Virus record (IMG/VR): IMGVR_UViG_3300028883_000077
Span: 1 to 42,772 of that record
Length of the DNA stretch: 42,772 bases
DNA from: a virus
Direction: 5' to 3' (one strand)
A program made the translations under genes and the position numbers. This document shows, piece after piece, positions 1 to 16,875 of this stretch. A model generated the notes under the pieces. It worked only from the letters and a program-made list of their open reading frames with translations, searched no databases and was not told where the DNA came from. Positions within the stretch are counted from its first letter, which is position 1. Each line of letters begins with the position of its first letter.

Positions 1-539
1 CTGTACACATTAAGGAGCAGGAATACATTATCGTTATACAGCAATTCCAGGTTCTTGTTGAATACCGTTAAGTATTCTTCGTCGTCGGCCAAATATTTTG
101 GGATATCAAGAACGACAAAAATCTCAAAGTTTCGCCCTCGCCAATTATCACACGTATCTTCCAACAGCTGGATGCGGCGCGCTGTTTCATCGTAATCATT
201 CAAACACGTAGATGTGCATGTGAACGTAAAGTACTGACTCATTTCCTGGAACTTTGGATCGGTGACAACATCATCCAGATTGGATGCGCTGAATATATCT
301 GTTGGCCCCAAGAACAATTCGTTGAAATCATACCCCGCATCTCTCCATTGGCGGACAAGATCGCAAGTCACGTCAAGATCATCTCCCAAGAAAGGAAGTT
401 TTTTGTTGACGAAGCATCCAGGACACTTATGTTCACAACCACCCAACAGATCCAATGTCAGATCTATTGACATCCAGTTAGCATCACGCAGAGCTCTAGT
501 GCCGCCTTTATGTTGAGCATACGCATTGGGCAATTGCAT
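1..539 (-). CDS. Radical SAM protein, 3' part beyond window edge
   Basis: Partial gene: 179 codons are visible and the frame runs off the left edge. The start is ATG at 539, preceded by a purine-rich GGGAGAGA, and overlaps the end of the upstream radical SAM gene by 32 nt. The N-terminus carries the cluster-binding CxxxCxxC (C35, C39, C42, read as GGCEHKCPGCF), followed by the GPTDIFSA motif where a GGE motif is usual. It is a clear paralogue of the 378 aa protein just upstream: LDLL-GC, GPTDIFSA, the FTF-C-ST stretch and the DDEEYLT segment recur in the same order. Radical SAM enzymes use a [4Fe-4S] cluster to cleave S-adenosylmethionine and start radical chemistry. The substrate is unknown. 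The auxiliary-cluster region, if any, lies outside the window. Confidence 0.85.
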   Translation of the reverse strand, partial: MQLPNAYAQHKGGTRALRDANWMSIDLTLDLLGGCEHKCPGCFVNKKLPFLGDDLDVTCDLVRQWRDAGYDFNELFLGPTDIFSASNLDDVVTDPKFQEMSQYFTFTCTSTCLNDYDETARRIQLLEDTCDNWRGRNFEIFVVLDIPKYLADDEEYLTVFNKNLELLYNDNVFLLLNVY

Positions 540-1644
540 TTGCGTTCTCTCCCGGCTCTCTAAGCAACTCTTTTGGTAGCATACATTTCTTGATGTTTCT
601 GGATTCCATGTACGTTAATATATTACGCGATGCGCATGTCGTTAAATGAGGACACGTAGCGCATTCTTTTGTGTCGTCTGCGTATATCATTTGCCGAATG
701 AATAGCTCTCGTGCCTTTGCGTCAAGTTCTTCCGGTGTCCAGAACCCATCAATGTTTCTTGGAATGTGAAACAGTTCGTCTGTAACAGGAATGTTTTCGT
801 ATATGAAGGGTGCTACGTATAACTCATGATTACGATACGTGTAGTCATGAAACGTTAACGCATTCGCGTATATGTTGATCATGTTGGAATACACTTGGCT
901 TATCGTATCTTCGGTGATTTCTCGACGAAGAATATCACGCAGTTTAGTTGCATAGTCCATTACCAACAGTTGATTGTTACTGCGGAAAAATGATGGGTTG
1001 ATTCGTAAGCCGGTGGTGCAGTCTTTTGATGGGGGATTGAATTCTACCATTAATCGGTGATTTAACTCAGCAAGACTTAACTGAGCGAACTTTCCCTCTT
1101 TGTCGACATTGACAGTAAAGAACACGTCATCCAAATCAAACAGTTCTAGCTTCTTCCACAAATCCGTTAAGTACTCTTCATCGTTGTTGAGATACTTTTC
1201 CAAATCCAGCATCACAAAGCATTCAAACCCACGGCCTCTCCAGTTGGGGTGGTACTGCTTGATCTTCTCTACACGAGCTGCTATTTGGTCATACGTATCT
1301 TGTAGTGTAGACACGCAAGCGAACGTAAAATGCTCGCCTAGCATCAAGAAGTCATCATTATCGAATATTGCGTCAAAGTTGTTAGCGCTAAAGATATCTG
1401 TAGGTCCAACGAACGTTTCATTAAATCCAAACCCCTGCGCCTCCCACTGATCAACCAGTCGAGCAATATCAGCCAGGTCGTTACTATTCACTTTATTTCT
1501 GCGCTGAACAAAACACCCATCACAGTGGTACGCGCATCCATCTAGGAGGTCCAGGGTAAGATTAACGGACGTAAGGCATGCATCCCGCAACGGATTCGTT
1601 GCAGTGTGAGGAATAGAGTACGCCTTCTTCAGTAAATCGTCCAT
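508..1644 (-). CDS. Radical SAM protein with C-terminal Cys cluster
   Basis: Predicted radical SAM enzyme of 378 aa. CxxxCxxC is at C37, C41, C44 (GCAYHCDGCF), after a beta strand reading NLTLDLL. The region after the first helix reads GPTDIFSA rather than GGEP, so this and the next gene form a divergent subgroup. Near the C-terminus, CATCPHLTTC plus a later KKC resembles a reduced SPASM/auxiliary cluster motif (Cx2Cx5C). The start ATG overlaps the stop of the preceding partner gene by one base (TAATG), a translational-coupling arrangement. It follows one copy of a paralogous small partner gene and precedes a second radical SAM paralogue. The family assignment is firm from motifs; the substrate and reaction are not predictable. 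Confidence 0.88.
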   Translation of the reverse strand: MDDLLKKAYSIPHTATNPLRDACLTSVNLTLDLLDGCAYHCDGCFVQRRNKVNSNDLADIARLVDQWEAQGFGFNETFVGPTDIFSANNFDAIFDNDDFLMLGEHFTFACVSTLQDTYDQIAARVEKIKQYHPNWRGRGFECFVMLDLEKYLNNDEEYLTDLWKKLELFDLDDVFFTVNVDKEGKFAQLSLAELNHRLMVEFNPPSKDCTTGLRINPSFFRSNNQLLVMDYATKLRDILRREITEDTISQVYSNMINIYANALTFHDYTYRNHELYVAPFIYENIPVTDELFHIPRNIDGFWTPEELDAKARELFIRQMIYADDTKECATCPHLTTCASRNILTYMESRNIKKCMLPKELLREPGENANAIAQCVCST

Positions 1645-2330
1645 TATCTGCTCAAAAATGATTCTACCACTGCATGCAACATGTTTGTAGGGTTGTCAAT
1701 AAAAAACTGGATTAACCGATCCCCTCCATATATGTACTCATCGAAATAGTACGTATAATACGAGCGATTGAAATCCAATAAAGTATCACTGACAAGGCTT
1801 AACAACACCTCATCGTGTTCAATCAGATGAACGAAATTTACTCCAACACCTTCCACCGGGCCGCCAACTTCATGTTGCGTTTCACCGACGATAGGATTCT
1901 TAACTGGACCTGGTGCGTCAGACGATTCAATTAGAAATAGTGGGAGTGATCGAATTACATCCATTTGATGTTCGATGACACTATCAGGAATTGCCTTCAA
2001 TATGCTACTTGACCACATATCTGGATCTTCTAAAGTCTGCACATGGGCTTTCGCTAACAGAACATCTGCATGCAATTGACTTAAATTTGACCTGCCGACT
2101 AAGAAGGGGGTTTTCATATATTCCACTAAAAACTCAGTCGTAAAGTTTGTTACTAAAAAATCAATCTTGAGGTTCGATAAGTATCCCAATATGTGGGCTG
2201 GTTTAAGTGAGCAGTCTTTAAGATCGAATTTGAAAATAATATCGTTATTACCAGAAGCATTCGCTCGGCAGTATTCATTGATCTCCGAAGGTGACAGAGG
2301 GATTGTTGTTTGTATTATTCGCTTTTCCAT
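1644..2330 (-). CDS. Radical SAM-associated partner protein, copy 2
   Basis: Protein of 228 aa that I do not recognise. I start it at the second in-frame ATG (2330, MEKRIIQTT) because AAAGGG lies about 7 nt upstream; an earlier ATG at 2375 lies deep inside the upstream gene. It is a paralogue of the 229 aa protein at 3417-4106. Both begin with a TxPLSP segment, share a LGYLSNL/LLYLANL-type helix and an L-x-x-LHAD/GIHAN segment, and end with a YYxxYFDEYxxxG signature near residues 190-210. There is no signal peptide, membrane segment or cysteine cluster. Each copy lies directly upstream of a radical SAM gene, so a role as chaperone, scaffold or substrate-recognition partner is plausible but unproven. 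Confidence 0.75.
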   Translation of the reverse strand: MEKRIIQTTIPLSPSEINEYCRANASGNNDIIFKFDLKDCSLKPAHILGYLSNLKIDFLVTNFTTEFLVEYMKTPFLVGRSNLSQLHADVLLAKAHVQTLEDPDMWSSSILKAIPDSVIEHQMDVIRSLPLFLIESSDAPGPVKNPIVGETQHEVGGPVEGVGVNFVHLIEHDEVLLSLVSDTLLDFNRSYYTYYFDEYIYGGDRLIQFFIDNPTNMLHAVVESFLSR

Positions 2331-3430
2331 TCTATACCCTTTGTAACATAATTGAAGAATGCCTTCATTGGGCATCGCGGGTTACTCATGTCTCGTTCCC
2401 TATTCTTCCAATCAGATTGCGTGAAGCAACGAAGGCCACAGCGCTGAAAATATTCGCAGGAAAGACACCCAAGGTCGTCTATATAATTCTGCATCATTCC
2501 AGCATTATCGTCCATGTTTAATGTTGTGGTGAAATCGTCTTGGTCATACCGGTGCCATCTGCAGTTTGATGTTCGATTGTCTGGAAAAATTGTTAACTTG
2601 TTCAATGATAGACAATGCATCTCATTTACTTCATTTTCCAACAATGTTGCAACTGGAGCTATTTTAGGGTACCGATCTGCTATAAATTTGTACCACTCGT
2701 ATATCATACTATCTGATGGCATCATCGCATCGGTTCCTTTGTCAGGAATAAAGTCATCGAAATAGATGTTGAAATTGTCATACAGCCATTTGAAGTACTC
2801 GTCCTTATCTTCCATGAAGATCCTTATAGACTCGACTGTACCGACCAAATTAACCGATATGATATACTCTGGACCGAACCATTCAATGTTCTTCTTGTAT
2901 CGGTTTGACATAGGACGGCCATCAAAATCGTATGAAACGATCAGATGCGAATCAACACCAGCATTTCGTAACTGGTCCATCAAATCCTTAACGAGTTCTT
3001 TCTTGGCAAATAGAAAATTACTTACCCAAACGATACGCAATTTCACTTTGTGCTTATACGCAATGTTGTTGATCTGCCAAGCAATATAAAAGAAGTCATC
3101 ACACAGACGTTCCATCCAACGATCTTGAAACAGTTCGCCTCCTACAATATTGAACTGAACTAGATCAACAGTTCCCGCCCGCTCTTCGATAAACTTATCT
3201 GCGATGTGAAGTTTCTCTTGCATTTCATCTCGCGTGAGTCCAATAGTAGATTTTTTATCATGAAAGCAAAAATCACACTCGATGTTACAATTCTCAAACA
3301 ACGTAAGCTCCACTTCAGCAATCGACGGACGCTTACTCTCGAGAAGCTGTTTAGTAACTTCAGCAGGAACCGAAGGATCTTTCCCCTCAGTCAAAGGAAC
3401 TTGGACTATTGGAATTTCAGACAGTTTGGT
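2315..3430 (-). CDS. Radical SAM/SPASM-like enzyme
   Basis: Predicted radical SAM enzyme of about 371 aa. The open frame begins at a GTG at 3445; I prefer the next GTG (3430), which has GGAG six bases upstream, so the start is uncertain. CxxxCxxC is at about C48, C52, C55 (ENCNIECDFCF), and a GGE motif follows (NIVGGELF). The C-terminal part has a SPASM-like cysteine set: NCRWH, then CLSCEYFQRCGLRC (Cx2Cx5Cx3C), then a final RCP. Such domains bind auxiliary [4Fe-4S] clusters in peptide- and protein-modifying enzymes. It overlaps the end of the 229 aa partner gene upstream and is followed with overlap by the second partner gene. The substrate is unknown; a peptide or protein is the family expectation. 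Confidence 0.85.
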   Translation of the reverse strand, partial: TKLSEIPIVQVPLTEGKDPSVPAEVTKQLLESKRPSIAEVELTLFENCNIECDFCFHDKKSTIGLTRDEMQEKLHIADKFIEERAGTVDLVQFNIVGGELFQDRWMERLCDDFFYIAWQINNIAYKHKVKLRIVWVSNFLFAKKELVKDLMDQLRNAGVDSHLIVSYDFDGRPMSNRYKKNIEWFGPEYIISVNLVGTVESIRIFMEDKDEYFKWLYDNFNIYFDDFIPDKGTDAMMPSDSMIYEWYKFIADRYPKIAPVATLLENEVNEMHCLSLNKLTIFPDNRTSNCRWHRYDQDDFTTTLNMDDNAGMMQNYIDDLGCLSCEYFQRCGLRCFTQSDWKNRERDMSNPRCPMKAFFNYVTKGIEWKSE

Positions 3431-4106
3431 CACTGGCCACTCCACTCTCGTGGGAGCGAACAGCAGCGATCAGACCGAAGAACGGACACGTGCTAGCGAA
3501 GTGAAAGAGATTCTTTCCGCGGAACATATACTCATCAAAATAACGAGCGTAATATGTTTGTTCGCTCAACTCTGGAACATCTTGCGAGTAAACGATCATA
3601 AAATCTTCGAAATTGAGCAATGAAATTAACGACATGTTGATCGAATCATATAGTGTGTCATCAACCCTCGTGATGCTATCTTTATCATAACCATCAGTCC
3701 GGGTAAGTGCATACAACATGAACGAATCGAGGAACACAAGTTGTTCTGCCAGTAGATCGGCGTGCGCTTCAGCGAAGGCAATCATACGATCAATAGGAAA
3801 GACTGGTTCGAGTGCTGGAAAAAATACCTCTCCGTATTTGATGTACCCCAAAATATTGGCGTGAATTCCCATCAAATCAGGAGAGTTTACCATTTCTTTT
3901 AGAGCAACATACTCTGCCATCAACTCATCTGTTATTTCGGTAAACGAACAGTGAACTCCGAGGTTAGCCAGGTACAGCAACAGAGAGCGCTCATTCAACG
4001 AAGAAGTAGTTTGCTCCATATCAACGACGAATAGTTGAGACTTGTCTTTAAAAAATTCCACCATGTCTGTCGGCGACAGTGGAAGGGTAACTACTTTTTC
4101 AGTCAT
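3417..4106 (-). CDS. Radical SAM-associated partner protein, copy 1
   Basis: Protein of 229 aa with no recognised domain, and a paralogue of the 228 aa protein at 1644-2330: same TLPLSP start, same helical core, same YYARYFDEYMFRG signature. The ATG at 4106 has a good GAGG ribosome-binding site about 8 nt upstream. It is acidic, mostly helical in appearance and without transmembrane segments or Cys motifs. The downstream radical SAM/SPASM gene overlaps its 3' end. Two copies, each paired with a radical SAM gene, suggest that partner plus enzyme is a functional module that has been duplicated. The function is unknown. Confidence 0.75.
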   Translation of the reverse strand: MTEKVVTLPLSPTDMVEFFKDKSQLFVVDMEQTTSSLNERSLLLYLANLGVHCSFTEITDELMAEYVALKEMVNSPDLMGIHANILGYIKYGEVFFPALEPVFPIDRMIAFAEAHADLLAEQLVFLDSFMLYALTRTDGYDKDSITRVDDTLYDSINMSLISLLNFEDFMIVYSQDVPELSEQTYYARYFDEYMFRGKNLFHFASTCPFFGLIAAVRSHESGVASDQTV

Positions 4107-4123
4107 ATGCGACCTCTATATTA

Positions 4124-5143
4124 TTATGCTGACATCAAGAGAATGCTGTTGAACTTCTCCGCTTTAGATGAAATTAATCCTGTTGATATGAAATTGTACT
4201 TTGCATTCTCTAGAACGGCAACGTCTTTCTTCTCATTAAGATCGAAGAAGAAATCGATTTCAGCTTTATCAACGTCAGGCTGGGAATCATAATCCAACTC
4301 ATTATCAATCGCGGCATAACAAAAGCGCTTCAGCTCCGCAATAGTGTCGGCATTGGTCAGATCAAAAGGAATATCGCCATGATGGCCGCCCACGCATTCG
4401 TGACGGAATAGCTCTTTCAACAGTGCATTACCTTCTATGGCAGACATTATATCATCAACAGACTCGATGGTATCATCATCCAGGAACTGTTGTAAGAGAG
4501 CAGGAGATGCTCCCAATGCAACTTTGGCACTCTCTACCAAGTTATGAATTTGTCCCAGCAACAGTCCTTCGGCTAATGCAGCAATCTTCACGTTGACCTG
4601 CAACTCGGAGATATTACCCCATTTGTACAGTACATACGCTACTTCAAATGGCAATTCGAAGATGTTGCCGTATAGTTTGCCGAGCGCAGTGTATTCGGTT
4701 GCATTATAAACCTGCTCAAACCCACCAGTCTTGCAAAATGTGCTCATTAATGCATTCCCGGACATATAGTCTTTCAGTATCTGAGCATCGCGCATTTTCT
4801 TGAGGTTTGCGTTGCTTACGCCGAACGTTTTGCTTAGTTCGCTCTGAACCATTTTGAACAGTTTAACATAATCATGCTCACTGACGACAATTTGAAGGTC
4901 TTCTTCACGTAGTAGGAAGTCGTGGAACTTTTGCCAGTCGCCCCCGAATACGTTTTCTATAGCATCATTCAGAGATGATTCTACAAACACAACTCCACGG
5001 GCAGTAACATCGTCCTCAATCCCTTCGAATGTTGGAACAGAAACACCTCTGAAGTCGGGGTGCATGATGATAGATCGCTCATACATCAGATCAACCAGTT
5101 CGGAGTTCTGAACTACATAAATTTTCTTCTTGATGTTAAACAT
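4124..5143 (-). CDS. Unknown protein in radical SAM cluster
   Basis: Protein of 339 aa, unrecognised. The open frame extends to 5182, but the likely start is ATG 5143 (MFNIKKKIYVV): GGGGAAGA lies just upstream and the ATG overlaps the previous gene's TAA by one base (TAATG). The sequence looks soluble and mainly alpha-helical, acidic towards the C-terminus, with a CVGGHHGD stretch near residue 260 and a hydrophobic tail ending ILLMSA. No catalytic motif is evident. It lies between the Cys-repeat protein (5143-5673) and the first partner gene, all tightly coupled, so it probably acts in the same pathway or complex. No function is assigned. Confidence 0.7.
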   Translation of the reverse strand: MFNIKKKIYVVQNSELVDLMYERSIIMHPDFRGVSVPTFEGIEDDVTARGVVFVESSLNDAIENVFGGDWQKFHDFLLREEDLQIVVSEHDYVKLFKMVQSELSKTFGVSNANLKKMRDAQILKDYMSGNALMSTFCKTGGFEQVYNATEYTALGKLYGNIFELPFEVAYVLYKWGNISELQVNVKIAALAEGLLLGQIHNLVESAKVALGASPALLQQFLDDDTIESVDDIMSAIEGNALLKELFRHECVGGHHGDIPFDLTNADTIAELKRFCYAAIDNELDYDSQPDVDKAEIDFFFDLNEKKDVAVLENAKYNFISTGLISSKAEKFNSILLMSA

Positions 5144-5673
5144 TATCGTCTTCCCCGCGAACCGTGACACTGACTGTGACACTGACTGTGACAGTATGTA
5201 ATTAGATGTTGTTGTATAAGGTTGTCGGAATTGATCATAGTCTTCAAACTGTTGATCAAGCCCGTGAAGTCAGACTGATCAACGTCCTCGCCAGCATCCA
5301 ATATATCATAGATTGCGTTCCCACTACCAGGAACGCTTGACGATGGCACTGGGGATGTAACGTACGCATACTTATCATACGTTGAGCCAGCTGGCGAAAC
5401 GTTGCCAGTTAACTGATATCGGATCTTACGAACTCGTGACCATGCTTGAGCTTTTGGTATGACAAGGCTCCGAATATCACTACCGTCAACATTTGATGTA
5501 GGCAGGTCGCCGGCAACTGCATTGCCCTCCGTAGTTGATGGAGCGCTCACCGTAACCCCTTGTGCTGATGCACGAGAGATGTCTGTGGCGTTTACTGCAG
5601 GTGTTTTGCCTGCAGGAGCGGTACGCATCGTGTTGATCCAGGTCACATACTGTGTCTTTGTAATATTAGCCAT
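5143..5673 (-). CDS. Small protein with C-terminal CHSQCHSQCHG repeat; candidate modification substrate
   Basis: Protein of 176 aa. The ATG at 5673 abuts the TAA of the radical SAM/SPASM gene with no gap, and GGGGCAAGAG within that gene's end serves as ribosome-binding site. Residues 1-150 are rich in Ala, Ser, Thr and Gly, and look like a small structural or tail protein. The last 17 residues hold all three cysteines (C161, C165, C169) in the repeat CHSQCHSQCHGS, followed by an Arg-rich end (RGRR). The repeat is encoded by two perfect 12-bp units in frame. A short Cys/His-rich tail next to a SPASM maturase is what a ribosomally made, post-translationally modified precursor can look like, but a metal-binding tail or a recently slipped DNA repeat are alternatives. 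No homologue is recognised. Confidence 0.72.
   Translation of the reverse strand: MANITKTQYVTWINTMRTAPAGKTPAVNATDISRASAQGVTVSAPSTTEGNAVAGDLPTSNVDGSDIRSLVIPKAQAWSRVRKIRYQLTGNVSPAGSTYDKYAYVTSPVPSSSVPGSGNAIYDILDAGEDVDQSDFTGLINSLKTMINSDNLIQQHLITYCHSQCHSQCHGSRGRR
5164..5193 (-). repeat. 12-bp direct repeat, 2.5 copies, encoding CHSQ units
   Basis: On the plus strand the unit GTGACACTGACT occurs at 5164-5175 and 5176-5187, followed by a half unit GTGACA at 5188-5193. The period is a multiple of three, so each unit adds exactly C-H-S-Q to the 176 aa protein read from the minus strand. The copies are identical at the nucleotide level, which implies recent expansion. Confidence 0.95.
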
Positions 5674-6747
5674 TTACTCTTGCCCCATGAATCCGTTGAG
5701 AAACTTCTTATACAACTCAACGTCATCGTCTTGTTTTAATTTTGTCATCAGCGACTTAGGTGCTGCACACACATTCCCCTGCCACTGAAGTTGATGACAG
5801 TCGCCATTACATATGTCATATACCGGACAAGTATAACATGCCGGGTGGCGAATTACTTCAGCCTGAATGTTGCACATCCGACCTTCACTTGTCATCAATG
5901 TCTCAACGTCGTCATGAATTGTTCCGAATGTGTTACTAACTGCACTATTCGGACACCCACCAATCGTACCATCGGCATTGATTGTTAATATTTTCTGCTC
6001 ACATTCACGACAGCGGCATCCAGAATGTGTTGAGTATGCAAGCGATGAAAGGATCGAATCAAAAAACATATTGTCGATATATTCATACGTCTTGTGCTCA
6101 ACGCACTGTTCCCACATTTTAAGGAACCACTCATCCAGCGCCTTATTGCCCGGAATTATGCCATCATCAACATGATCAAGCGCGTTACCGTTTGGAGTTA
6201 CACGCTCAAAGTTGATATGTTTAATCCCCAATGAAGCCATATCTTCAATTATTTCAATCGGCTCCATATTATGAACTACATTGCCACTTAGGCAAATCAT
6301 CACTGTGATATCATGTCCAGCATCTGTCATCTGTTTGACATTATGCCGCCACAACATCTCTTTGTTGAGATCAGGCCACCGGATATTCTTATCCCATGAC
6401 GTACCCCAACTCTTTTCGCAAATCGTATCAAAGATTTCAACCTTCTTATCCGTTAGCGGATACGTTAGGTTTGTCTGGACCGACCACCAAATGTTCGGCC
6501 ACAAGTCTTTAATACCGTTCCACGCCTCAAACATGAGATGTGGAGGAGCGAGCATTGGTTCACCACCATGAAACGAAATCGTTCCATTGTCGTAGTGAGG
6601 GTGCCACTCTTTCAACCTCTGAAAGAAGTTGACGGTCGCCTCAACATCAAACCACCCTTTCTTTCCATTCTTTCCATTTGTAAAACAATGGTCACAATGC
6701 AAGTTGCATGTGTCGGTGGTCTTTAAGTAGACCATCAAATCGTTCAT
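5674..6747 (-). CDS. Radical SAM/SPASM enzyme (anSME-like)
   Basis: This 357 aa protein has the most canonical maturase architecture in the cluster. CxxxCxxC is at C14, C18, C21 (TCNLHCDHCF) and GGEP at residues 61-64. A full SPASM domain follows, with CRCRECEQ (244-249), GGC (265), then C304, C307, C313, C317 (HPACYTCPVYDICNGDC) and C327. This is the layout of anaerobic sulfatase-maturating enzymes and RiPP maturases that carry two auxiliary [4Fe-4S] clusters. ATG 6747 follows a GAGGGTAA site, 11 nt after the tail-fibre-like gene. The 176 aa Cys-repeat gene begins at the base after its stop codon. I see no sulfatase in the window, so a phage peptide or virion protein is the more likely substrate; that is inference. 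Confidence 0.93.
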   Translation of the reverse strand: MNDLMVYLKTTDTCNLHCDHCFTNGKNGKKGWFDVEATVNFFQRLKEWHPHYDNGTISFHGGEPMLAPPHLMFEAWNGIKDLWPNIWWSVQTNLTYPLTDKKVEIFDTICEKSWGTSWDKNIRWPDLNKEMLWRHNVKQMTDAGHDITVMICLSGNVVHNMEPIEIIEDMASLGIKHINFERVTPNGNALDHVDDGIIPGNKALDEWFLKMWEQCVEHKTYEYIDNMFFDSILSSLAYSTHSGCRCRECEQKILTINADGTIGGCPNSAVSNTFGTIHDDVETLMTSEGRMCNIQAEVIRHPACYTCPVYDICNGDCHQLQWQGNVCAAPKSLMTKLKQDDDVELYKKFLNGFMGQE

Positions 6748-6758: not shown

Positions 6759-7868
6759 TTACGAATACTGTGCTGGGAATACTTGTACCCATCCATTCCT
6801 GTAAATGTACACGATATTCGACTCAACGGCAACGTCGCCGTTGCGAGGAGTACCGGTCGAAGTTGAGCTGAAGAAGCTAACAAAACGGACAGAACCCGAA
6901 CTCGTCGCTCCACCAACCGCATCATCAACATATTTCTTCGTGGCTGCATGATAGTTTGCTGTTGGGTCAGCATGTAGGGTAATGAACCCTGTCATCGAAC
7001 CACCAGTCTTATCTAGTTTACCATTAAGGTCAGCATACACAGTTCCTGTGCTAGCAGTGTACCCTTTCAATGCGCAAATATCTGCCGCTACTTGAATTGA
7101 AGCAGCTGATGTATTCATACACGAGGACTGTAGAGTGTCCAGCATTTCGTTTTGACGAACAGTTAAGTGCATGCTGTCGTCAGCCATGTGGAGCGATAGT
7201 GTTCCTCCAGGGCCGGTGATTGCACCAATAGCATCATCAACGTACGTCTTATGAACTGCATCATATGGGTCAATAGGATCGCCAAGGTTAGAAATAACGT
7301 TTCTGGTCGTTCCGCCATCATCACTCATGCTAAGAGTGCCACCCATATCACCACCACACACACTCAAACGATCGAATCCAATTTTAACCCAACCGTTAAC
7401 ATCAGCGTCTGGATGGGTTGGATCATAAAGTTTTAGAGTAGGCAACCCACAACCGGTGGTAACATCAAGATCGTACCACAAATCACCCTGTTCAGCGGAG
7501 TCTGGGTTTGTTGTGTTTACAACGACGGATGATGTTTTTTTCCACACCGTTCCAGTGTAGTAATACATTAATTCATCGGTTTTATTAAACCAAGGCTGAC
7601 CCGGAATTGGGGTTGTAATACCTTTCCCTGGCCCAAGATCGCTCTCGTCTTGTGGAGTTCCTGGAGATGCTGCCTTCTCATGACAAGCAAAGTTTTCCGT
7701 CAGACGAAGGAGGTTTTGATCGACACCTTCGCCCCACAGCAGGGCACCCATACCATACAGACGCAAATCAGTATCGCGATTCGGGCCGCCTGGGCCATTT
7801 AATTGGCCTGGTTTCAGTGTGATGGTTAAGGTACCATCAGTGCTTTGTACGTAATATAAGTTGGACAT
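6759..7868 (-). CDS. Tail-fibre-like structural protein
   Basis: Protein of 369 aa. The N-terminal module (about residues 15-65: a GPGGxxxxxDLxLYG segment, then GE, then L-x-ENFAC) is shared with the 488 aa protein at 8530-9996. It is followed by a PIPGQPWFNKTDELMYYY segment and by two copies of the common phage-fibre motif in which GGTLS or GGSMTGFITL is followed by AxxKxYVDDA. The C-terminus, with NGDVAVESNIVYIYRNG, is beta-rich. It has several cysteines (ACHE, GCG, VCG, SCM, ICA), more than the paralogue. A late-promoter motif lies upstream at 7894-7901, and the radical SAM cluster begins 11 nt downstream. It is probably a virion tail component, perhaps a fibre or adhesin attached by the shared N-terminus. 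Confidence 0.82.
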   Translation of the reverse strand: MSNLYYVQSTDGTLTITLKPGQLNGPGGPNRDTDLRLYGMGALLWGEGVDQNLLRLTENFACHEKAASPGTPQDESDLGPGKGITTPIPGQPWFNKTDELMYYYTGTVWKKTSSVVVNTTNPDSAEQGDLWYDLDVTTGCGLPTLKLYDPTHPDADVNGWVKIGFDRLSVCGGDMGGTLSMSDDGGTTRNVISNLGDPIDPYDAVHKTYVDDAIGAITGPGGTLSLHMADDSMHLTVRQNEMLDTLQSSCMNTSAASIQVAADICALKGYTASTGTVYADLNGKLDKTGGSMTGFITLHADPTANYHAATKKYVDDAVGGATSSGSVRFVSFFSSTSTGTPRNGDVAVESNIVYIYRNGWVQVFPAQYS

Positions 7869-7904: not shown

Positions 7905-8516
7905 TTATACTGCGTCCAATAGAGCAATGGTAGCTTCCGTGATCGCACGAATGTCCTCATCCGTTGTGGCATTATCGACCTGAGCTTTTCCGCCAAGCCG
8001 GTGTTTTTCTATCTGAGCGCCGGCTGCTATCCATGCAGATTTTTGATTTAAAATATCATCAGCAGCCTGAGCGTGCGTTTTGCCTGTGGCATCTACTTCT
8101 GCCTGTAGGAATGGATAATCTTCAAGCATTGGGGGCGAACCAGTAGGAGCCGGATATCCGGCTGCAATGTAATCAGCAGCCTCTTCAGCCTTTTCCTGAT
8201 ATGTTAATCCCTGGCCCGGTGCGACTGTGATGTATCGTGTACGTGCAATTCCAGCATGTTTATCAATCTTCGTTTTAGCCCGCGAACGTTCAGCATCAAG
8301 GGATACGTTACCTACATGCCAGGCTGATAGATATGTCTGAAAGTTGTCCACAGCGTCTTGCAGATCAGCATCCAATACGCCGTTGACTGTCAATAGTTCA
8401 TTTGCAGCATCGTAAGAAATTTTAGGACTTGTAGCCCCAGCGAAATGAGCAACCAAAGGTAGCTGATTGTTCAAGTCGTTGACGAGCTGATCGCGTGTTA
8501 CTGTTATTGTTCCCAT
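7905..8516 (-). CDS. Small tail-associated protein of unknown function
   Basis: Protein of 203 aa between two tail-fibre-like genes. The N-terminal 80 residues contain an ISYDAANELLTVNG strand pattern. The remainder is helical and Ala-rich: RARTKI-like helix, then a segment reading ITVAPGQGLTYQEKAEEA, and later segments around DYPFLQAEVDATGKT and AAGAQIEKHRLGG. I associate this helical pattern with small proteins beside phage tail-fibre genes (fibre-assembly or decoration proteins), but I cannot name a family with confidence. Start ATG 8516. Confidence 0.7.
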   Translation of the reverse strand: MGTITVTRDQLVNDLNNQLPLVAHFAGATSPKISYDAANELLTVNGVLDADLQDAVDNFQTYLSAWHVGNVSLDAERSRAKTKIDKHAGIARTRYITVAPGQGLTYQEKAEEAADYIAAGYPAPTGSPPMLEDYPFLQAEVDATGKTHAQAADDILNQKSAWIAAGAQIEKHRLGGKAQVDNATTDEDIRAITEATIALLDAV

Positions 8517-8529: not shown

Positions 8530-9996
8530 TCAAAAAGGTATACCGATTACTGACCATTGTAAAGTTTCACCACTACCATCTGCCGATCCGAATGTATACA
8601 AGAAGCCTATAATCTCACTCGAACCGCCACGCACCCACCCGGCAAATCCATTTGGACTATCTGATTCGCCATTCGGCGGGCTGCCAGAACCATCATCAAA
8701 CCCAATAGTGGCGGACGCAATGCTATAGCTATTAGAAAAAATTACAGAACCAGATACGTTACCGGTCGGTAACAATACTGATCCCTCCTCCAACACAAAT
8801 CCTGATTGGCTTTGGACATATTCTACAGTGGCTAAGTTTTTGGTGTGACTTCCGACCTCAGATACCGTCGCGTTTTGACACCGTATGACGTGTTCCGGCG
8901 AAGTCATAGGAATCTGACCACCCTTCCCAGTTCCACCGTAATATGTAAAGCGTCCCTCCTGCGATACCATGAACAGATCAAGTTGGTTCACGTTGCCATC
9001 AGCGGACCCCGTTATCGTATCCATCTCTAACACAAGGGCACTGCTATCACGGGGGATTAACCGCGTATACGGACGGCGATTAACCACATCATTGTCGGCG
9101 TTGTAGAACACGAGCGAAGGAGGAGCCGAAGAAGTATTTTCGGCTCGAATCTCCACATACGGGCCAGTGTTGGATGTTATATGAATTCCAGGCGTATCAT
9201 TTGGTAAGTCGAAGAACAACGTATCCGTCATGGTATCGCCAGTCTTCTCAACGAAGTTAGTAGGACCTGTACCGGTTGCTGCAGCTATTTCATCATCAAC
9301 GTATTTCTTGTTCGGAATGTCGTCGTCGTGGGTGACAAGCGTCTCGTAGTTGTTAATCTCTGAGTGAAGTGTGCCGTCGATTTCGATACGAAATAGATCA
9401 GTTTCAGAACCATCACGAATCAGTGATCCTTTCGATACAGTAAATGCACCAGTGCCGCTACTATCACCATCCAGATGAACATAGAAACTATCGTCAACAG
9501 AAATCAGTCCGGACTGAGCCATTCGGATATCAGCTCCATTGCTGACATTACCGTTACCTTCATTTAAGAACAATGATTGCCACGAATGAACACCTGATAA
9601 ATTCGAATCTCCAGCTCTATTGACTTTACCGTCTAACTGGGCCTGCAAACCAGTAATATCGCTAATATCTAACGATCCGCCAACAAGATTCCAGGCAGAG
9701 CCGTCATACGTATACAGTTGGTTGTCTGTTTTATTAAACCACAACTGACCAATAATCGGGGAAGAAATATATTTTGGCGTGTTTGGGGCAATCTGAGGAC
9801 ACGCAAAATTCTCAAGCAGGTGATAGAAGTTCTCATTGAATCTCTCACCCCAACTCGGTGCGGCGTTTCCGTAGAGAGTTAGGTCCGATCGCTGCTGAAC
9901 GCCACCTGGACCGTCGAATGTACGCGGCTGGATAGCGAAATCGTCTGGATCGTCAGCATCCGTTCTTGTGATAATATAAACTGTTGTGTCCGCCAT
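8530..9996 (-). CDS. Tail-fibre-like structural protein
   Basis: Protein of 488 aa and paralogue of the 369 aa gene in its N-terminal module: FDGPGGVQQRSDLTLYG, then SWGERFNENFYHLLENFAC, then IIGQLWFNKTDNQLYTYDG. The middle has the phage-fibre motif VEKTGDTMTDTL together with IPNKKYVDDEIA. The C-terminus is a beta-rich receptor-binding or decorative domain with SPPNGESDSPNGFAG. No enzymatic motif is visible. A late-promoter motif at 10039-10046 lies upstream. It is probably a virion fibre or adhesin subunit that attaches through the same N-terminal docking domain as its paralogue. Confidence 0.83.
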   Translation of the reverse strand: MADTTVYIITRTDADDPDDFAIQPRTFDGPGGVQQRSDLTLYGNAAPSWGERFNENFYHLLENFACPQIAPNTPKYISSPIIGQLWFNKTDNQLYTYDGSAWNLVGGSLDISDITGLQAQLDGKVNRAGDSNLSGVHSWQSLFLNEGNGNVSNGADIRMAQSGLISVDDSFYVHLDGDSSGTGAFTVSKGSLIRDGSETDLFRIEIDGTLHSEINNYETLVTHDDDIPNKKYVDDEIAAATGTGPTNFVEKTGDTMTDTLFFDLPNDTPGIHITSNTGPYVEIRAENTSSAPPSLVFYNADNDVVNRRPYTRLIPRDSSALVLEMDTITGSADGNVNQLDLFMVSQEGRFTYYGGTGKGGQIPMTSPEHVIRCQNATVSEVGSHTKNLATVEYVQSQSGFVLEEGSVLLPTGNVSGSVIFSNSYSIASATIGFDDGSGSPPNGESDSPNGFAGWVRGGSSEIIGFLYTFGSADGSGETLQWSVIGIPF

Positions 9997-10048: not shown

Positions 10049-10729
10049 CTAGAGATTTAGTTCTTCGACGTACAGATCCATGTTTCGAACGACGTCTTTC
10101 CGCTGTTCAAACTTCTCCTTCCAATAAGGCGGGCGAATGATCGCTTGGATCACAGTCATTTCTTCTTGCGACACTTTCTGTGTTAGGAATTCTTTGAATC
10201 TGCGGCTACGTAAGAGAATCCAAGGAGAAAGCCGGCGTTCGCGGAGCATCTGTATGAATTCAGGGCCAGTGATCACATCAAATACTTCCGACACGTCACA
10301 ATCTGCCGCTTCAGCTATACTGAATAGTGTTTTAATCGTTAAATCCGCCCGCTTGTATGGATCGGCCTGTCTGTCAAGGAACTCGAGGTACATTGCGTAC
10401 ACCTGATCATTAACCCACAAGACTGGCGACATATCCTTTTCTTTCATCAGCCAGATAAATGCGTCTATGTCGGGAAGATTAACTCGTTTTGAAAATTGAG
10501 CGAACCTGATGAATGGTTTATAGAATTTGGAATGCAAGAATGCGTCTGAACGAGGTACTTGACGACGATACGCTTTCATCCATTTTTGGTAAAAAATCCA
10601 AGCAGCTTGTCCAGTTGGTGTCTGGAATTCCTCAGCTCGTCTCATGGGTTCGCATTTGTGAGCCATAAAACGATCTTCATGGACAAAATGCTTACCGCAG
10701 TACTTACATTGGAACCGACGCTCTTTCAC
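10049..10729 (-). CDS. Zinc-finger protein, T4-like conserved unknown
   Basis: Protein of 226 aa starting with GTG at 10729. The start is supported because a C2H2-type finger begins immediately (CKYCGKHFVHEDRFMAHKC: Cx2C, then HxxxxC). The rest is helical and basic, with tryptophan and arginine rich segments (AWIFYQKWMKAYRR, RLSPWILLRSRRF). The GTG lies inside the end of the gp62-like gene (26-nt overlap). A nucleic-acid-binding or protein-bridging role in phage DNA metabolism is likely from the finger and the neighbours; the specific function is unknown. Confidence 0.75.
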   Translation of the reverse strand: MKERRFQCKYCGKHFVHEDRFMAHKCEPMRRAEEFQTPTGQAAWIFYQKWMKAYRRQVPRSDAFLHSKFYKPFIRFAQFSKRVNLPDIDAFIWLMKEKDMSPVLWVNDQVYAMYLEFLDRQADPYKRADLTIKTLFSIAEAADCDVSEVFDVITGPEFIQMLRERRLSPWILLRSRRFKEFLTQKVSQEEMTVIQAIIRPPYWKEKFEQRKDVVRNMDLYVEELNL

Positions 10730-11198
10730 GATCTTTTAATTCTTTCTTGATGGCTTTTATTGTATCTGGCTGTACGCCAAGTTCTTCAGCAAATTGTATC
10801 ACATCTTCATCGGAAAGCAACGGTAATACGTCCGCAGCCTCTGATGTACTATACCCAAAATAGTCGCAAATCACATTTACTGTATTGGAAGCACCAGATG
10901 ACTTTTTGGACTTGGCTTTGTTCCAAAAATATTTCTGAGATCGTCCTGACGACGAAACAGTCATCAAGTTGACAAGAAGCTCTTTGTGATTTGCCATTGA
11001 GAACACAAACGGATTGACGAGCTCATTCAAAAACAATATTTGACGAGCATCACGCGTCCCCGATAGCCAGCGCATGACAACAAGCGGAGCTAATGCTTTT
11101 TGTTCATCCTCCGACAAAGACTTGTAATATGCTCGGTCTTTCGTGCTCAGCTTATTGAGAACTTGGAAGATATCGAGTTTGTGTTTTTTATCCGGCAT
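10704..11198 (-). CDS. 62: Probable clamp-loader small subunit (gp62-like)
   Basis: About 164 aa from ATG 11198; a GTG at 11222 would add eight residues. The pattern LVVMRWLSGTRDARQILFLNELVNP, a basic KYFWNKAKSKK segment, and a terminal helical domain DYFGYSTSEAADVLPLLSDE matches my expectation for gp62 of T4-like phages outside the T4 group: short, helical, one W-L-S segment, and a C-terminal repeat of a small three-helix domain. gp62 binds four gp44 ATPase subunits to form the clamp loader that places gp45 on DNA. The gp44 gene lies four genes upstream in the same run, which supports the call. Sequence similarity to T4 gp62 itself is weak. Confidence 0.55.
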   Translation of the reverse strand: MPDKKHKLDIFQVLNKLSTKDRAYYKSLSEDEQKALAPLVVMRWLSGTRDARQILFLNELVNPFVFSMANHKELLVNLMTVSSSGRSQKYFWNKAKSKKSSGASNTVNVICDYFGYSTSEAADVLPLLSDEDVIQFAEELGVQPDTIKAIKKELKDRERASVPM

Positions 11199-11523
11199 TT
11201 GGTTTGCTGATTTTTTTACCACAGAACTTGCACACGACGTGATCGTCTTTTACGACAAGATATTCATATGGATGGATACATTCGGCGACCATCATCTCGC
11301 GCAGTTCTTGAATCTCGTCAAATATTGGAATCTTTTTTGCCTGCAAGGCAATAATTTCTTCTTCGATCGGAGTCAACTTGGTCATCAACTTGACCATGTT
11401 TTCCATCTTTCGATTCCATGAAACCTTCTCGCTGCGGTTTGGACCATTTGCGATTGTTTCTTTAATTTGACGCTCTTGTTTTTGTTCTGGCGATTCGTTC
11501 TGTGGTGTTTTTCTTCTCGGCAT
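11188..11523 (-). CDS. Coiled-coil protein with C-terminal zinc ribbon
   Basis: Protein of 111 aa. It has a basic, charged N-terminus, a central amphipathic helix (about residues 40-80: MVKLMTKLTPIEEEIIALQA) and a C-terminal metal site: C-x-HP-x-EY, followed by CKFCGKK. Ligands are probably Cys, His, Cys, Cys. The same arrangement recurs in the 99 aa protein at 16557-16856. ATG 11523 has AGGA about 7 nt upstream. By size and position it might be a late-transcription or replication accessory factor, but nothing specific supports that. It overlaps the gp62-like gene. Confidence 0.65.
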   Translation of the reverse strand: MPRRKTPQNESPEQKQERQIKETIANGPNRSEKVSWNRKMENMVKLMTKLTPIEEEIIALQAKKIPIFDEIQELREMMVAECIHPYEYLVVKDDHVVCKFCGKKISKPNAG

Positions 11524-11524
11524 A

Positions 11525-11746
11525 TTATAGTCCTAGGGTTTTCATTGCCCGCTCGTATGCTGCTTCTTCTGAGTCATCAGGGCGGCGATCTATAACACGA
11601 CATTCAAGCGTCAGATATACATCCGCGCCGATCATGCGTTCGTCATATTCTACTTTAGTGCGGTACACCATAGCCTCAACGCCTGCTTCTTTCAACTCTT
11701 CGTTGAGTTTTTCCAACGTCATTGGTAACTGGGCTGGAGTCTTCAT
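11525..11746 (-). CDS. Small hypothetical protein
   Basis: Protein of 73 aa, unrecognised. ATG 11746 overlaps the previous gene's TGA by four bases (ATGA), with GAGG about 9 nt upstream. The C-terminal stretch SEEAAYERAMKTL resembles the C-terminus of the 195 aa protein encoded immediately upstream (PEDAYDRAMRII), so the two may share a short interaction motif. There are no membrane segments or cysteine clusters. Confidence 0.62.
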   Translation of the reverse strand: MKTPAQLPMTLEKLNEELKEAGVEAMVYRTKVEYDERMIGADVYLTLECRVIDRRPDDSEEAAYERAMKTLGL

Positions 11747-12330
11747 TCGATAATCCTCATTGCGCGATCGTATGCGTCTTCCGGCTTTTCTTCTTTGACT
11801 ACGGAGATATCAACGTGTTGCCAGTCGACGGTTCGTGTAAACATTTCTGGGAATGCGGTGGCGATTGCGTGCCAGAATTTTTGCGCAGCATAGCTTTCGC
11901 TAACCCCCTCAATGTAGCCTTCGCCGTACTCAACAGCGCCTGATTTGGAAATGTTTATGAGCATGTTGCCGTCATCGTCATGAATGCGCATGATGTGATC
12001 CGACCCACACAATGAAACGGTTGGTGTGTAAGTGTCGGCGGTGTTCGTGAACTCATAATGCCAAGGCAAAGGGTCGGCCGCGACGATACGATCGTTAATG
12101 TATCCTCGCGTTGCAACATCCATGGCGGCAAATACCTGCTCGACTTCATCTTCGGGATGAGGATGAATCAGTGGGCCCTGCGCTTCAATGTCAAAGCTAA
12201 CTGTTACGTTACCGTCCGCTGGAGCTGAACTCCAGTCGCACATATACTCGGTGCGGAAGAAGTCTTTTGATACGATATTATCCTTCATCATTTTAACCAG
12301 TTCTTCTGCATTATCATTCCACAAAGCCAT
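11743..12330 (-). CDS. Hypothetical protein
   Basis: Protein of 195 aa, unrecognised. Start ATG 12330 follows GAGGATAGAGAT. It is acidic and beta-rich in the middle (DGNVTVSFDIEAQGP, IHDDDGNMLINISKSG), with a helical C-terminus that ends in the DAYDRAMRI motif shared with the next gene. It lies directly downstream of gp44, probably co-transcribed with the clamp-loader genes. Confidence 0.65.
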   Translation of the reverse strand: MALWNDNAEELVKMMKDNIVSKDFFRTEYMCDWSSAPADGNVTVSFDIEAQGPLIHPHPEDEVEQVFAAMDVATRGYINDRIVAADPLPWHYEFTNTADTYTPTVSLCGSDHIMRIHDDDGNMLINISKSGAVEYGEGYIEGVSESYAAQKFWHAIATAFPEMFTRTVDWQHVDISVVKEEKPEDAYDRAMRIIE

Positions 12331-12340
12331 ATCTCTATCC

Positions 12341-13273
12341 TCATATTTGTGTTAGTCTTATGAACATAGCCGCCGCATTAATTTCCGGATCCGCTACAAT
12401 ACTATGTTTGTATAGGTGGTCTGCGACAATGACGATCCCAGCCTCCCACTTTTCTTCTGTTGCGAACTTGGGCGACTTGTCCAGGTTCTCATACAGGAAT
12501 CGATATACAGATTCCCACTCCTCTGCCGATACTTCACCACACGCTAATTTTCTAGCGTTAAACCAATCATCAGTTTCAATATATCCGAGTAGCTTAAATT
12601 TATAATCACCCGACTCGCTTTCTGTGGTTAGGGGCATTAACGTCCCCGACCGTGAGTTCTGCTGAAGTAAGTTGATAATTTTTCTAATATCAGGATACCC
12701 AACGCGGACATATTTGTCGAGAAGATCCAGATCGAACTTAATATGTTCTTGGAGAAGAATTTGTGCAACGTTTTCCGTTACGTCGTTCACATCATGCTTG
12801 GAAAACCGGAAATGCTGGCAACGAGATTTGATTGCTGGCTGAATCTTATTCTCGTAGTTGCAGGTTAGGATGAAACGAGCGCTATCCGCAAACTCTTCCA
12901 TCATGCGGCGTAGAACGGCTTGGCCTGCAAGAGATACGTAATCGGCCTCTTCTAGGTGAACGATTTTGAAATCACCCATTGCATATGTTGATATGAATGC
13001 TTTGATCTTCTCTCGCATAACATCAACGCTATTTTCGTCAGATGCGTTAAGAGTTAGCACATCCATCTTATCAACGCCGATTGCTTTGATGATGATTAAA
13101 GCTAGGGTGGTTTTACCTGACCCCTGAACGCCAGACAATAGCAGATGGGGAATGGACCCATCTTCAATCATACTCTCGATTGCTACTCGCTGGTTTTCGT
13201 CGTGGAATACGTAATCGTCTAGGGTCTGCGGGCGGTAGCGCTCCACCCATAAAGCGTGTTTGTTCTGATCCAT
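12341..13273 (-). CDS. 44: Clamp-loader AAA+ ATPase large subunit (gp44)
   Basis: Protein of 310 aa, close to the 319 aa of T4 gp44. It has Walker A GVQGSGKT at residues 48-55, a Walker B-like segment HLEEAD near 105-110, and the SRC sensor motif at 149-151 followed by the RFSKHDV linker. The N-terminus, WVERYRPQTLDDYV, is the classical clamp-loader start. Together with gp62 it hydrolyses ATP to load the gp45 sliding clamp. The Walker B box has Glu where Asp is usual (EEAD instead of DEAD). ATG 13273 has AGGAG five bases upstream and its own sigma70 promoter at 13300-13327. Confidence 0.95.
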   Translation of the reverse strand: MDQNKHALWVERYRPQTLDDYVFHDENQRVAIESMIEDGSIPHLLLSGVQGSGKTTLALIIIKAIGVDKMDVLTLNASDENSVDVMREKIKAFISTYAMGDFKIVHLEEADYVSLAGQAVLRRMMEEFADSARFILTCNYENKIQPAIKSRCQHFRFSKHDVNDVTENVAQILLQEHIKFDLDLLDKYVRVGYPDIRKIINLLQQNSRSGTLMPLTTESESGDYKFKLLGYIETDDWFNARKLACGEVSAEEWESVYRFLYENLDKSPKFATEEKWEAGIVIVADHLYKHSIVADPEINAAAMFIRLTQI

Positions 13274-13274
13274 T

Positions 13275-13319
13275 AGTTCTCCTCACAGTACAACGTTGTA
13301 TTATACCGCAAGGAGAACT
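13275..13319 (-). promoter_or_regulatory. Inverted repeat that can mask the gp44 ribosome-binding site
   Basis: A perfect 9-bp inverted repeat: AGGAGAACT (13275-13283 on the minus strand, containing the gp44 Shine-Dalgarno) and AGTTCTCCT (13311-13319), which lies in the spacer of the sigma70 promoter. The upstream arm exists only in RNA that reads through from genes upstream, not in RNA begun at this promoter. The 12-bp palindrome at 13289-13300 would form a nested stem. Confidence 0.65.
13289..13300. promoter_or_regulatory. Palindrome TACAACGTTGTA at gp44 start site
   Basis: A perfect 12-bp dyad that abuts and shares one base with the -10 box of the gp44 promoter and covers the expected transcription start. 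This is a typical operator position for a repressor, or it may only be the inner stem of the gp44 leader hairpin. Confidence 0.5.
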
Positions 13320-13327
13320 TTTGTCAA
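13300..13327 (-). promoter_or_regulatory. Sigma70 promoter of the gp44 operon
   Basis: TTGACA (13322-13327) and TATAAT (13300-13305), both perfect, separated by 16 bp, in the 60-nt gap before gp44. The expected start is near 13293, giving a leader of about 20 nt. It would allow early expression by the unmodified host RNA polymerase. Confidence 0.85.
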
Positions 13328-13333
13328 CTCGTG

Positions 13334-14350
13334 TTAAGTATTACCCTTATTTGGGTTTCGGATGCGTTCTTTGATTAAACGGTGACGGAGCATCTCTTCC
13401 AGCATACCTTTTTGAGCGAGCTCCTGAGGAGAAAGTTCTTTCTGTTCATTTAGCTCTTCAATAGCGTGCTTGATTTGATCAACAGACACATCGTCTGGTG
13501 GATCTTCAAATAGCTGTTCGATGCTTGTTACCCTAGGGTCAGGCTCATCCAAATCAAGGTCACCCAACGCACCGTCTAACATCTCAACACGGTCATCCTC
13601 ACGGCGGCGCTTATGTGTTTGTCGCTCTACCATAGCGATGTTTGCGCCAACAGTCAATGCCACCGCCAATGGGTCAAACGCGAATATGATAATCATAATC
13701 AGCCAGGTGGTTGCATTGTTTACTTCCTGACCAAATGCCTCAGCAATGAACACAATAGGTCCAGTCTTCAACTCCTGTTGAAGGGTTGATAGTTTGATGG
13801 CTTGTTTTTCATCTGCTGTTGCGCGAATTTGTATAGTATATGATGCAACGTTTTCTTCAATCTTTGCAATTCGCTGCGCGTATCGTTCTGCGACTTGTGC
13901 TTTCTTCGAGGCATAGTTTGCCGGCAGTGCTGCTATCTCTTTCGCTTTATCGTCCTGCAATCGCTGGAGTTGTATTCGATCTTCTTCCCGAACGCTTTCT
14001 AGCTGCGCTATTTTCTCATCTAGCAGCTGAATCTTCGTTTCCATTTCAGCCAGGGGCAGTATATCTTTCTGATATGCCGCTGAAAGAAATCCGAAAATAC
14101 CAGCCGAAGTGATGACCATCAGCACAAAAATTGCTAACAGTAGGTAGGATTTTAATGTAAAAGATATGTGGTTCCAGTAACGATATACGTATGACGCGGC
14201 TACGAGCTTGCCAGCTTCGAGCGATGACATCATAATAACCACCGGAAGGAATGAGCCAGAAAAGATCTGGGCCATACCGTACACAGAAAAGAACGCTGCG
14301 GATCCTGCGATCGACAGCGTTACGAGCATTAATATTGCAATGAACATCAT
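13334..14350 (-). CDS. Membrane protein with cytoplasmic/periplasmic coiled coil
   Basis: Protein of 338 aa with about four hydrophobic segments: three in the first 110 residues (starting MMFIAILMLVTLSIAG, then SFLPVVIMMSS, then YLLLAIFVLMVITSAG) and one near residue 215 (TTWLIMIIIFAFDPLAVAL). A long charged coiled coil (about 120-195: METKIQLLDEKIAQLESV onwards) lies between the third and fourth. The C-terminus is an acidic, helical tail. I recognise this as a membrane protein type widely found in T4-like marine phages, of unknown role. A late-promoter motif precedes it, and the ATG follows GGAGGA. It may act at the host inner membrane late in infection. Confidence 0.75.
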   Translation of the reverse strand: MMFIAILMLVTLSIAGSAAFFSVYGMAQIFSGSFLPVVIMMSSLEAGKLVAASYVYRYWNHISFTLKSYLLLAIFVLMVITSAGIFGFLSAAYQKDILPLAEMETKIQLLDEKIAQLESVREEDRIQLQRLQDDKAKEIAALPANYASKKAQVAERYAQRIAKIEENVASYTIQIRATADEKQAIKLSTLQQELKTGPIVFIAEAFGQEVNNATTWLIMIIIFAFDPLAVALTVGANIAMVERQTHKRRREDDRVEMLDGALGDLDLDEPDPRVTSIEQLFEDPPDDVSVDQIKHAIEELNEQKELSPQELAQKGMLEEMLRHRLIKERIRNPNKGNT

Positions 14351-14374
14351 AAAAATAGTCCTCCAAGTGAGGGA

Positions 14375-14382
14375 TATTTATG
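14375..14382 (-). promoter_or_regulatory. Candidate late promoter (CATAAATA)
   Basis: CATAAATA on the minus strand in the 47-nt gap before the membrane-protein gene, 25 nt from its ATG. RNA from it could read through into gp44. Confidence 0.6.
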
Positions 14383-14397
14383 ATGTTTTAGGTCACA

Positions 14398-14709: not shown

Positions 14710-14720
14710 GTCTTTCTCCG

Positions 14721-15053: not shown

Positions 15054-15072
15054 ATATCATTCTCCTGATCCG

Positions 15073-16066: not shown

Positions 16067-16071
16067 TTTCT

Positions 16072-16856: not shown

Positions 16857-16875
16857 GGAATGTTATGATCCTTTA

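Follow-up and report, generated by a model that had tools for sequence, protein, structure and literature searches.

The window analysed here, a stretch of 42,772 bases spanning positions 1 to 42,772 of the IMG/VR virus record IMGVR_UViG_3300028883_000077, carries at one end an operon in which four radical S-adenosylmethionine (SAM) enzyme genes accompany the gene for a 176-amino-acid (aa) protein, here called the CH-tail protein, that closes with a constant tail of Cys, His, Ser and Arg residues. Because radical enzymes stand beside a protein with such a constant tail, the tail is probably chemically remade. The explanation that we favor, as slightly better than an even prospect, is that the operon specifies a pathway for modifying a protein tail, and that the modified tail is retained on a fibre-associated protein contacting Gram-negative cells. 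Taken separately, it is highly probable that the tail is a modified substrate and probable that the protein resides with the fibres on the virion or surface, and the case for a role in host or prey contact is evenly poised. From the features described below we infer the modification and its chemistry, the display with fibres and the contact with hosts.

Association of the tail gene with one of the radical SAM genes, rSAM-A, was examined independently of the tail: an IMG/VR search for which the rSAM-A alignment served as the only query yielded 80 loci. A gene encoding a CH-repeat tail lies close downstream of rSAM-A in 72 of the 74 usable loci, i.e., those with at least 700 bases downstream (including L179, with five CH tetrads), and the two loci that have none, L176 and L216, reach the contig end. 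From the other direction, IMG/VR was scanned twice with a codon pattern for the tail, and all counts from these scans are lower bounds. Among the matches listed, a radical SAM gene occurs in 143 of 149 tail loci, the remaining six having no more than 1.65 kb downstream, and 25 listed loci with at least 8.5 kb downstream each contain three to six. A tblastn search of 50,697 GenBank phage records with the rSAM-A query detected the gene in seven, from jumbo phages of Agrobacterium, Sinorhizobium, Burkholderia and Pseudomonas; in five phage regions, found without any tail query, the gene following rSAM-A ends in CHTSCHASCHSSRSRR, CHSSCHASCHNSRSRR, CHSSCHTSCHGSRGRR (two phages) or CHTSCHTSCHSARGRR. 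The CxxxCxxC motif and the SPASM Cys set of rSAM-A are invariant in A3, and a match to the SPASM family TIGR04085 reaches 28.1 bits, above the cut-off of 27. A chance origin of the cluster is excluded, because its gene content and order are shared by five jumbo phage isolates and more than 100 viral contigs.

The C-terminus of the window protein is exactly YCHSQCHSQCHGSRGRR, and its last 16 residues, CHSQCHSQCHGSRGRR, follow the general pattern CHxxCHxxCHxxRxRR, in which the usual repeat unit is CHxS and the usual terminus SRGRR. Although the first search pattern demanded no stop codon, genuine matches terminate exactly at one, and the tail occupies the exact C-terminus in at least about 150 loci whose N-termini are variable (one large cluster, one medium and several small). 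Ser residues, at positions that the search patterns left unconstrained, occur at −13 in 141 and at −5 in 139 of the 155 tails among the matches listed. The 145 distinct tail DNAs listed draw on both Cys codons (TGT/TGC), both His codons (CAT/CAC) and each of the six Arg codons, while the residues are fixed; since synonymous codons vary and amino acids do not, selection acts at the level of the protein. Variant tails also exist, including those of a clade that ends in CHSNCHGSCHGS plus Ile or Leu and lacks the Arg residues, and others ending in CHSSCHSSHSSRNRR. In L007, L031, L040, L050, L060, L074 and L076, we observed a second type of tail protein (about 126–144 aa, mostly in tandem pairs and followed by operons rich in rSAM-C, another of the radical SAM families), which has a different N-terminal domain and a tail identical in kind.

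A structural model of the tail-protein family, built for L107 with 98 sequences, has a predicted local distance difference test (pLDDT) score of 88 and shows an alpha/beta fold spanning some 175 residues, together with a disordered tail (pLDDT about 51). Its matches in BFVD are phage proteins only, among them one from the Agrobacterium phage Atu_ph07. Comparison with the PDB gave a best Foldseek E of 1.9 and no VIA match with Z of 2 or more, a weak matching that is not firm on the novelty of the fold. The window protein has no Pfam or NCBIfam match above cut-off. By fold, the same domain is shared by three BFVD proteins of Myoviridae sp. ctijX18 (A0A8S5USJ7, A0A8S5USV2 and A0A8S5USJ8; 504–660 aa), which are perhaps fusions of the tail-protein domain with other virion domains.

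The position of these operons points to the virion. Genes upstream of the tail gene, or of the JmjC_2/cupin gene (Cup) that precedes it in many operons, encode tail-fibre or virion proteins in unrelated contigs. Electrospray tandem mass spectrometry of Atu_ph07 virions defined a cluster of virion proteins, ‘CDS 170-215’ (PMC6102473), starting at FDI40_gp170, the CH-tail protein of this phage; the numbering agrees with that of the portal (gp198) and the prohead core (gp204). In pelagimyophages, radical SAM cassettes occur in, and distinguish, the host recognition clusters (PMC7029224).

Within the window, the relevant features are the following (coordinates are those of the 42,772-base record, whose end cuts the last gene of the cluster):
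5674..6747, minus strand: rSAM-A, 357 aa, radical SAM/SPASM enzyme and constant partner of the tail protein; CNLHCDHC; phrog_1802, 3.7e-48
5143..5673, minus strand: CH-tail protein, 176 aa, variable N-terminal domain and conserved C-terminal tail, proposed substrate; phrog_35144
5146..5193, minus strand: codons of the terminal tail CHSQCHSQCHGSRGRR, immediately 5' of the stop codon
4124..5143, minus strand: 339-aa protein of the X352 family, with its ATG at 5143
3417..4106, minus strand: partner P20767, copy 1, 229 aa, proposed substrate-presenting factor; phrog_20767, 8.4e-21
2315..3430, minus strand: rSAM-B, 371 aa, radical SAM/SPASM; CNIECDFC; phrog_1802, 4.7e-29
1644..2375, minus strand: partner P20767, copy 2, 243 aa; phrog_20767, 1e-17
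508..1644, minus strand: rSAM-C, copy 1, 378 aa, CAYHCDGC and a short C-terminal Cys set; phrog_31457, 2.7e-12; Pfam Radical_SAM E 0.014
3..539, minus strand: rSAM-C, copy 2, CEHKCPGC, incomplete at the contig end; synteny with L026 and L055
6759..7868, minus strand: tail-fibre-like protein directly upstream, 369 aa; phrog_15511, 8.7e-17, and weaker tail-fibre families
7905..8516, minus strand: 203-aa protein between the two fibre-like genes; phrog_8983, 7e-16
8530..9996, minus strand: second tail-fibre-like protein, 488 aa; phrog_15511, 2e-17, and virion structural family phrog_16122

A sequence-only reading of the window had described eight clustered genes, four with the CxxxCxxC motif and two of these with SPASM-type Cys sets, lying beside tail-fibre-like genes in a T4-like phage, and this description is borne out. 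All eight are on the minus strand and overlap or are separated by no more than 17 nt (the start of the X352 gene overlaps the stop of the 176-aa gene as TAATG); the motif is present in 3–539, 508–1644, 2315–3430 and 5674–6747, with C-terminal Cys sets in the last two, and only 5674–6747 (30.8 bits) passes the Pfam Radical_SAM cut-off. Strong matches to phrog_1802, a phage family of radical SAM proteins, are given by 5674–6747 and 2315–3430. The two paralogous partners it noted, 3417–4106 and 1644–2375, both belong to phrog_20767, and the genes at 6759–7868 and 8530–9996 encode tail-fibre-like proteins. The T4-like character is upheld by homologues of the gp44 clamp loader, UvsW, UvsY, UvsX and a gp32-type single-stranded DNA-binding protein (SSB); it does not delimit the system, which is also found in other jumbo phages and on Bdellovibrionota chromosomes. 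Similarly, the 176-aa Cys-repeat protein exists as described, but the role of partner assigned to it gives way to that of a protein whose CHxxCHxxCHxxRxRR C-terminal tail is the conserved and probably modified element. The proposed maturation pathway, acting on virion proteins or on a phage-made peptide, is best supported in its first form, with a released peptide ranked below. The expectation that homology searches would show whether the cluster is conserved was answered by the recurrence of its gene set and order; related phages keep the reading frames undisrupted, and none of the homologues indicates a role in ordinary metabolism. The cluster had also been taken as late-expressed: no exact copy of the T4 late promoter motif TATAAATA occurs near it (the sole exact copy, at 24366, is far upstream), and scans for sigma-70 promoters and terminators returned chance levels. 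The fibre-like genes on the cluster side are separated from the main tail-fibre region (24–43 kb) by the clamp loader, UvsW, UvsY, UvsX and SSB genes at 10049–24244.

Local profile searches of the loci gave a canonical operon order of tail-fibre gene(s), Cup, rSAM-A, tail protein, P20767, X355, rSAM-B, oxygenase(s), rSAM-D, rSAM-E and R140. Two to five radical SAM genes are present beyond rSAM-A, and copies of rSAM-C occur in some operons. The oxygenase families OG and OGb match 2-oxoglutarate (2OG)-Fe(II) oxygenases. P20767 is the most constant partner (86 of 87 loci with at least 5 kb downstream); its AlphaFold2 model (pLDDT 89) has no usable fold match in the PDB, and no homology between it and the tail protein was detected. 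The lineage of the window (with L026, L055, L127, L169 and L172) has the arrangement rSAM-A, tail protein, X352, P20767, rSAM-B, sometimes P20767 again, and repeats of rSAM-C; X352 precedes the tail protein in L055 and L172, and further rSAM-C genes occur in L055 and in L026, where there are at least four together with one rSAM-D. Members of the X352 family are present in L026, L055, L169 and L172 and in the Bdellovibrionota clusters L254–L257 and L259. Some operons include a B12-binding radical SAM protein of about 560–630 aa with the motif TRGCPYxCVxCEWGG (L101:5328-7163, L109:4684-6408, L131:5671-7341 and L193:11077-12969), which suggests methylation or another cobalamin-dependent step. FLC6 and SURPRISE13, jumbo phages of Burkholderia, carry two dihydrofolate reductase genes in tandem between rSAM-B and rSAM-D (L003:18307-19520 and L004:18394-19571).

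The clade in which tails terminate in CHGS[I/L] and RxRR is missing (L193, L196, L206–L209, L211 and relatives) is a natural experiment on which enzymes serve the Arg end. Those of its loci that are long enough keep rSAM-A, rSAM-D and P20767 and have no rSAM-B, rSAM-C, rSAM-E, JmjC or 2OG oxygenase genes. Whereas rSAM-B is present in 72 of 80 loci with RxRR tails, it is found in none of seven in this clade, where JmjC and oxygenase genes likewise number 0 of 7. From this single clade, comparison of gene content is suggestive of rSAM-B, JmjC and the oxygenases serving the Arg end. A strict tie between JmjC/cupin and RxRR was considered and rejected, since the window lineage keeps RxRR with no JmjC gene in the DNA seen. 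Among enzymes of the JmjC_2 type are hydroxylases of ribosomal His and Arg residues, and by analogy such an activity would suit a tail of CH units and Arg.

The module is not confined to phages. When 84,980 genomes of bacteria and archaea were scanned, 23 matches resulted, about 17 of them real and many of these from Bdellovibrionota; the DNA-pattern matches L152, L160 and L163 (Streptococcus mitis) have no tail open reading frame and were dismissed as chance, and L153 and L154 are phage contigs in bacterial bins, with T4 portal and sheath genes on the same contig. That all bacterial copies are misbinned phage was rejected for L249 and L251, whose flanks are bacterial metabolic genes (3-hydroxyacyl-CoA dehydrogenase and a CcoG/FixG-type oxidase gene set, respectively). 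Among the 129 Bdellovibrionota genomes of the class examined, 13 contain rSAM-A, and the module is adjoined by a gene for an S74 protein, in some cases one with a prepilin motif, and by a companion gene. An S74 gene lies within 10 kb of rSAM-A in 10 of the 13 genomes inspected, whereas the S74 counts and genome sizes predict about 0.4, an expectation that treats as independent genomes that partly share descent. Tails in this group vary (CHGNFPPPCHGSRGRR, CHTNVPTPPPCHASRGRR, CHSNHCSHSNHGSRGRR and WCHSSHSSHSSHSSRGRR). In the rSAM-A tree, the window belongs to a clade (support 100/92) containing both viral contigs and Bdellovibrionota copies, so these genes have moved between phages and Bdellovibrionota; as a lead only, this placement raises the idea that the window phage may infect a host of the Bdellovibrionota type. 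A protein of about 200 aa ending in GRHWVKxK adjoins the S74 gene (L249:7195-7824, L250:16651-17205, L251:930-1529 and L254:11715-12299) and may represent a second domain of the chaperone-like or fibre-processing kind. Beside another Bdellovibrionota module (L253:5156-8408, G058) is a row of proteins of about 170–340 aa, one of which belongs to OGb.

These features can be assembled into a pathway in which the 176-aa protein would be the substrate, its N-terminal domain being structural and folded and its 16-residue tail flexible. rSAM-A together with P20767 would install the first modification on the tetrad repeats, and the other radical SAM enzymes would act next, joined in most relatives by JmjC/cupin and 2OG-Fe(II) oxygenases and sometimes by the B12-binding enzyme, such that Cys, His, Ser and Arg side chains might be cross-linked, oxidised or both. 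The modified tail would stay attached and be displayed as a tip near the tail fibres, in contact with the surface of the Gram-negative host, and in some Bdellovibrionota predators this module would be put to use next to S74 genes that resemble phage fibres. Several points weigh against this pathway: modification of the tail has been observed by nobody; the window lineage has no JmjC or oxygenase gene within the DNA at hand; the presence of gp170 in Atu_ph07 virions is deduced from a cluster boundary; a fusion between tail protein and fibre was seen in no case; and common descent accounts for part of the S74 adjacency, though the Bdellovibrionota rSAM-A copies occupy at least three places in the tree. 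A bolder version, which we put forward tentatively and at somewhat less than even chances, holds that phages and predators share a weapon, exchanged between phages and Bdellovibrionota, in which four to seven radical SAM enzymes and the 2OG/JmjC oxygenases produce a hypermodified, non-protein-like fibre tip that grips or breaches the Gram-negative outer membrane.

If the system were a true ribosomally synthesized and post-translationally modified peptide (RiPP) pathway, the modified tail would be cleaved off, and the small peptide set free would have an antibacterial, signalling or superinfection-exclusion function. Precursor and rSAM/SPASM maturases do share one operon, the CH tail beside rSAM-A supplies an adjacent precursor with a conserved modifiable segment (again 72 of 74 loci), and the nearest curated families of rSAM-A are mostly peptide maturases, including PapB, DynA and YhhB. 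We nevertheless consider this quite improbable: all of those matches are far below cut-off (for the PapB ranthipeptide maturase NF047865, 45.5 of 340 for the window and 55.6 of 340 for L107), the phage operons have no recurrent protease or exporter, the N-terminal part is modelled as a folded domain unlike a leader, it is the tail that is conserved and its carrier that varies, and the setting is one of fibre genes, with the Atu_ph07 protein first in a virion-protein cluster. Relative to described rSAM/SPASM systems (PapB, DynA, YhhB and SCIFF maturases), which likewise place a peptide substrate beside CxxxCxxC and SPASM enzymes, the present one differs in having its conserved C-terminal tail on a folded protein of about 190 aa and in its phage and predator setting.

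Cys-His tetrads can also bind metals, and the modified tail might serve as a metal-binding or cross-linking virion element (e.g., an iron or copper fibre tip) for assembly, stability or receptor mimicry of a metallophore, an idea related to the Ferrojan Horse proposal of iron in the tail fibres of marine phages (mentioned in PMC11705849). Four to seven radical SAM enzymes and several oxygenases would then be needless, some tails (CHGNFPPPCHGSRGRR) have few Cys residues, and direct evidence of metal is lacking, so this is unlikely. That the enzymes instead belong to auxiliary metabolism or are viperin-like nucleotide enzymes, with the tail protein an unrelated passenger, is hardly credible: rSAM-B and rSAM-E do have weak viperin-like matches, but every one is far below the family cut-off (viperin NF038283, 28.3 of 180 for rSAM-B), no metabolic genes recur in the operons, and the tail gene is tied to rSAM-A.

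Other known systems share particular elements with the proposed pathway. The His-Xaa-Ser system (HxsA/B/C/D) also combines several radical SAM enzymes with a protein bearing short C-terminal His/Ser repeats, and the HxS-repeated tail of the Bdellovibrionota locus L260, WCHSSHSSHSSHSSRGRR, has a weak HxsA match. Scores remain well under the cut-offs, at best 16 bits against 121.65 for HxsA (TIGR03979; L260, with no match for the window protein), 25.7 of 370 for HxsB and 28 of 267.9 for HxsC, and the present tails are usually built of CHxS units and closed by SRGRR, with 2OG oxygenases and P20767 in addition. B. bacteriovorus recognises prey by means of S74 fibres, the mosaic adhesive trimer (MAT) proteins (PMC10769870), phage-fibre-like proteins of the type that adjoins the Bdellovibrionota module, where, by contrast, some have a prepilin-type N-terminus; radical SAM modification of MAT proteins is undescribed, and ‘radical SAM’ is absent from that paper. 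The nearest solved structures to rSAM-A are anaerobic sulfatase maturase (anSME; 4k37) and other whole-protein modifiers, which act on residues of large proteins, not on a short peptide, and differ from the present system in substrate, multi-enzyme operon and phage location.

To our knowledge, radical-SAM modification of a virion protein is undescribed. The sequence-only reading knew of no system with this layout, and we also found no published description of a phage system joining such a tail to radical SAM enzymes, which is weak evidence given thin coverage of subscription journals and preprints. An overview of jumbo phages (PMC7824862) does not contain ‘radical SAM’, and the portion available to us of PMC11118758, on RiPP links between prokaryotes and phages, does not describe the system. 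Because no described system that we found resembles it in substrate family, partner family and setting, we rate it as new, although it could more cautiously be labelled a variant of radical SAM maturation. That the module is common in uncultivated phages and rare in isolates (seven of the 50,697 records) may explain why it was overlooked.

If our interpretation is correct, the operons would provide a new set of enzyme families, together with a defined substrate of 16 residues, for the production of cross-linked peptides. Moreover, the receptor-contact surfaces of phages would bear chemistry that is invisible in sequence alone, which would have a bearing on host range, on the evolution of adhesins and on the way, so far unexplained, in which relatives of Bdellovibrio recognise prey.

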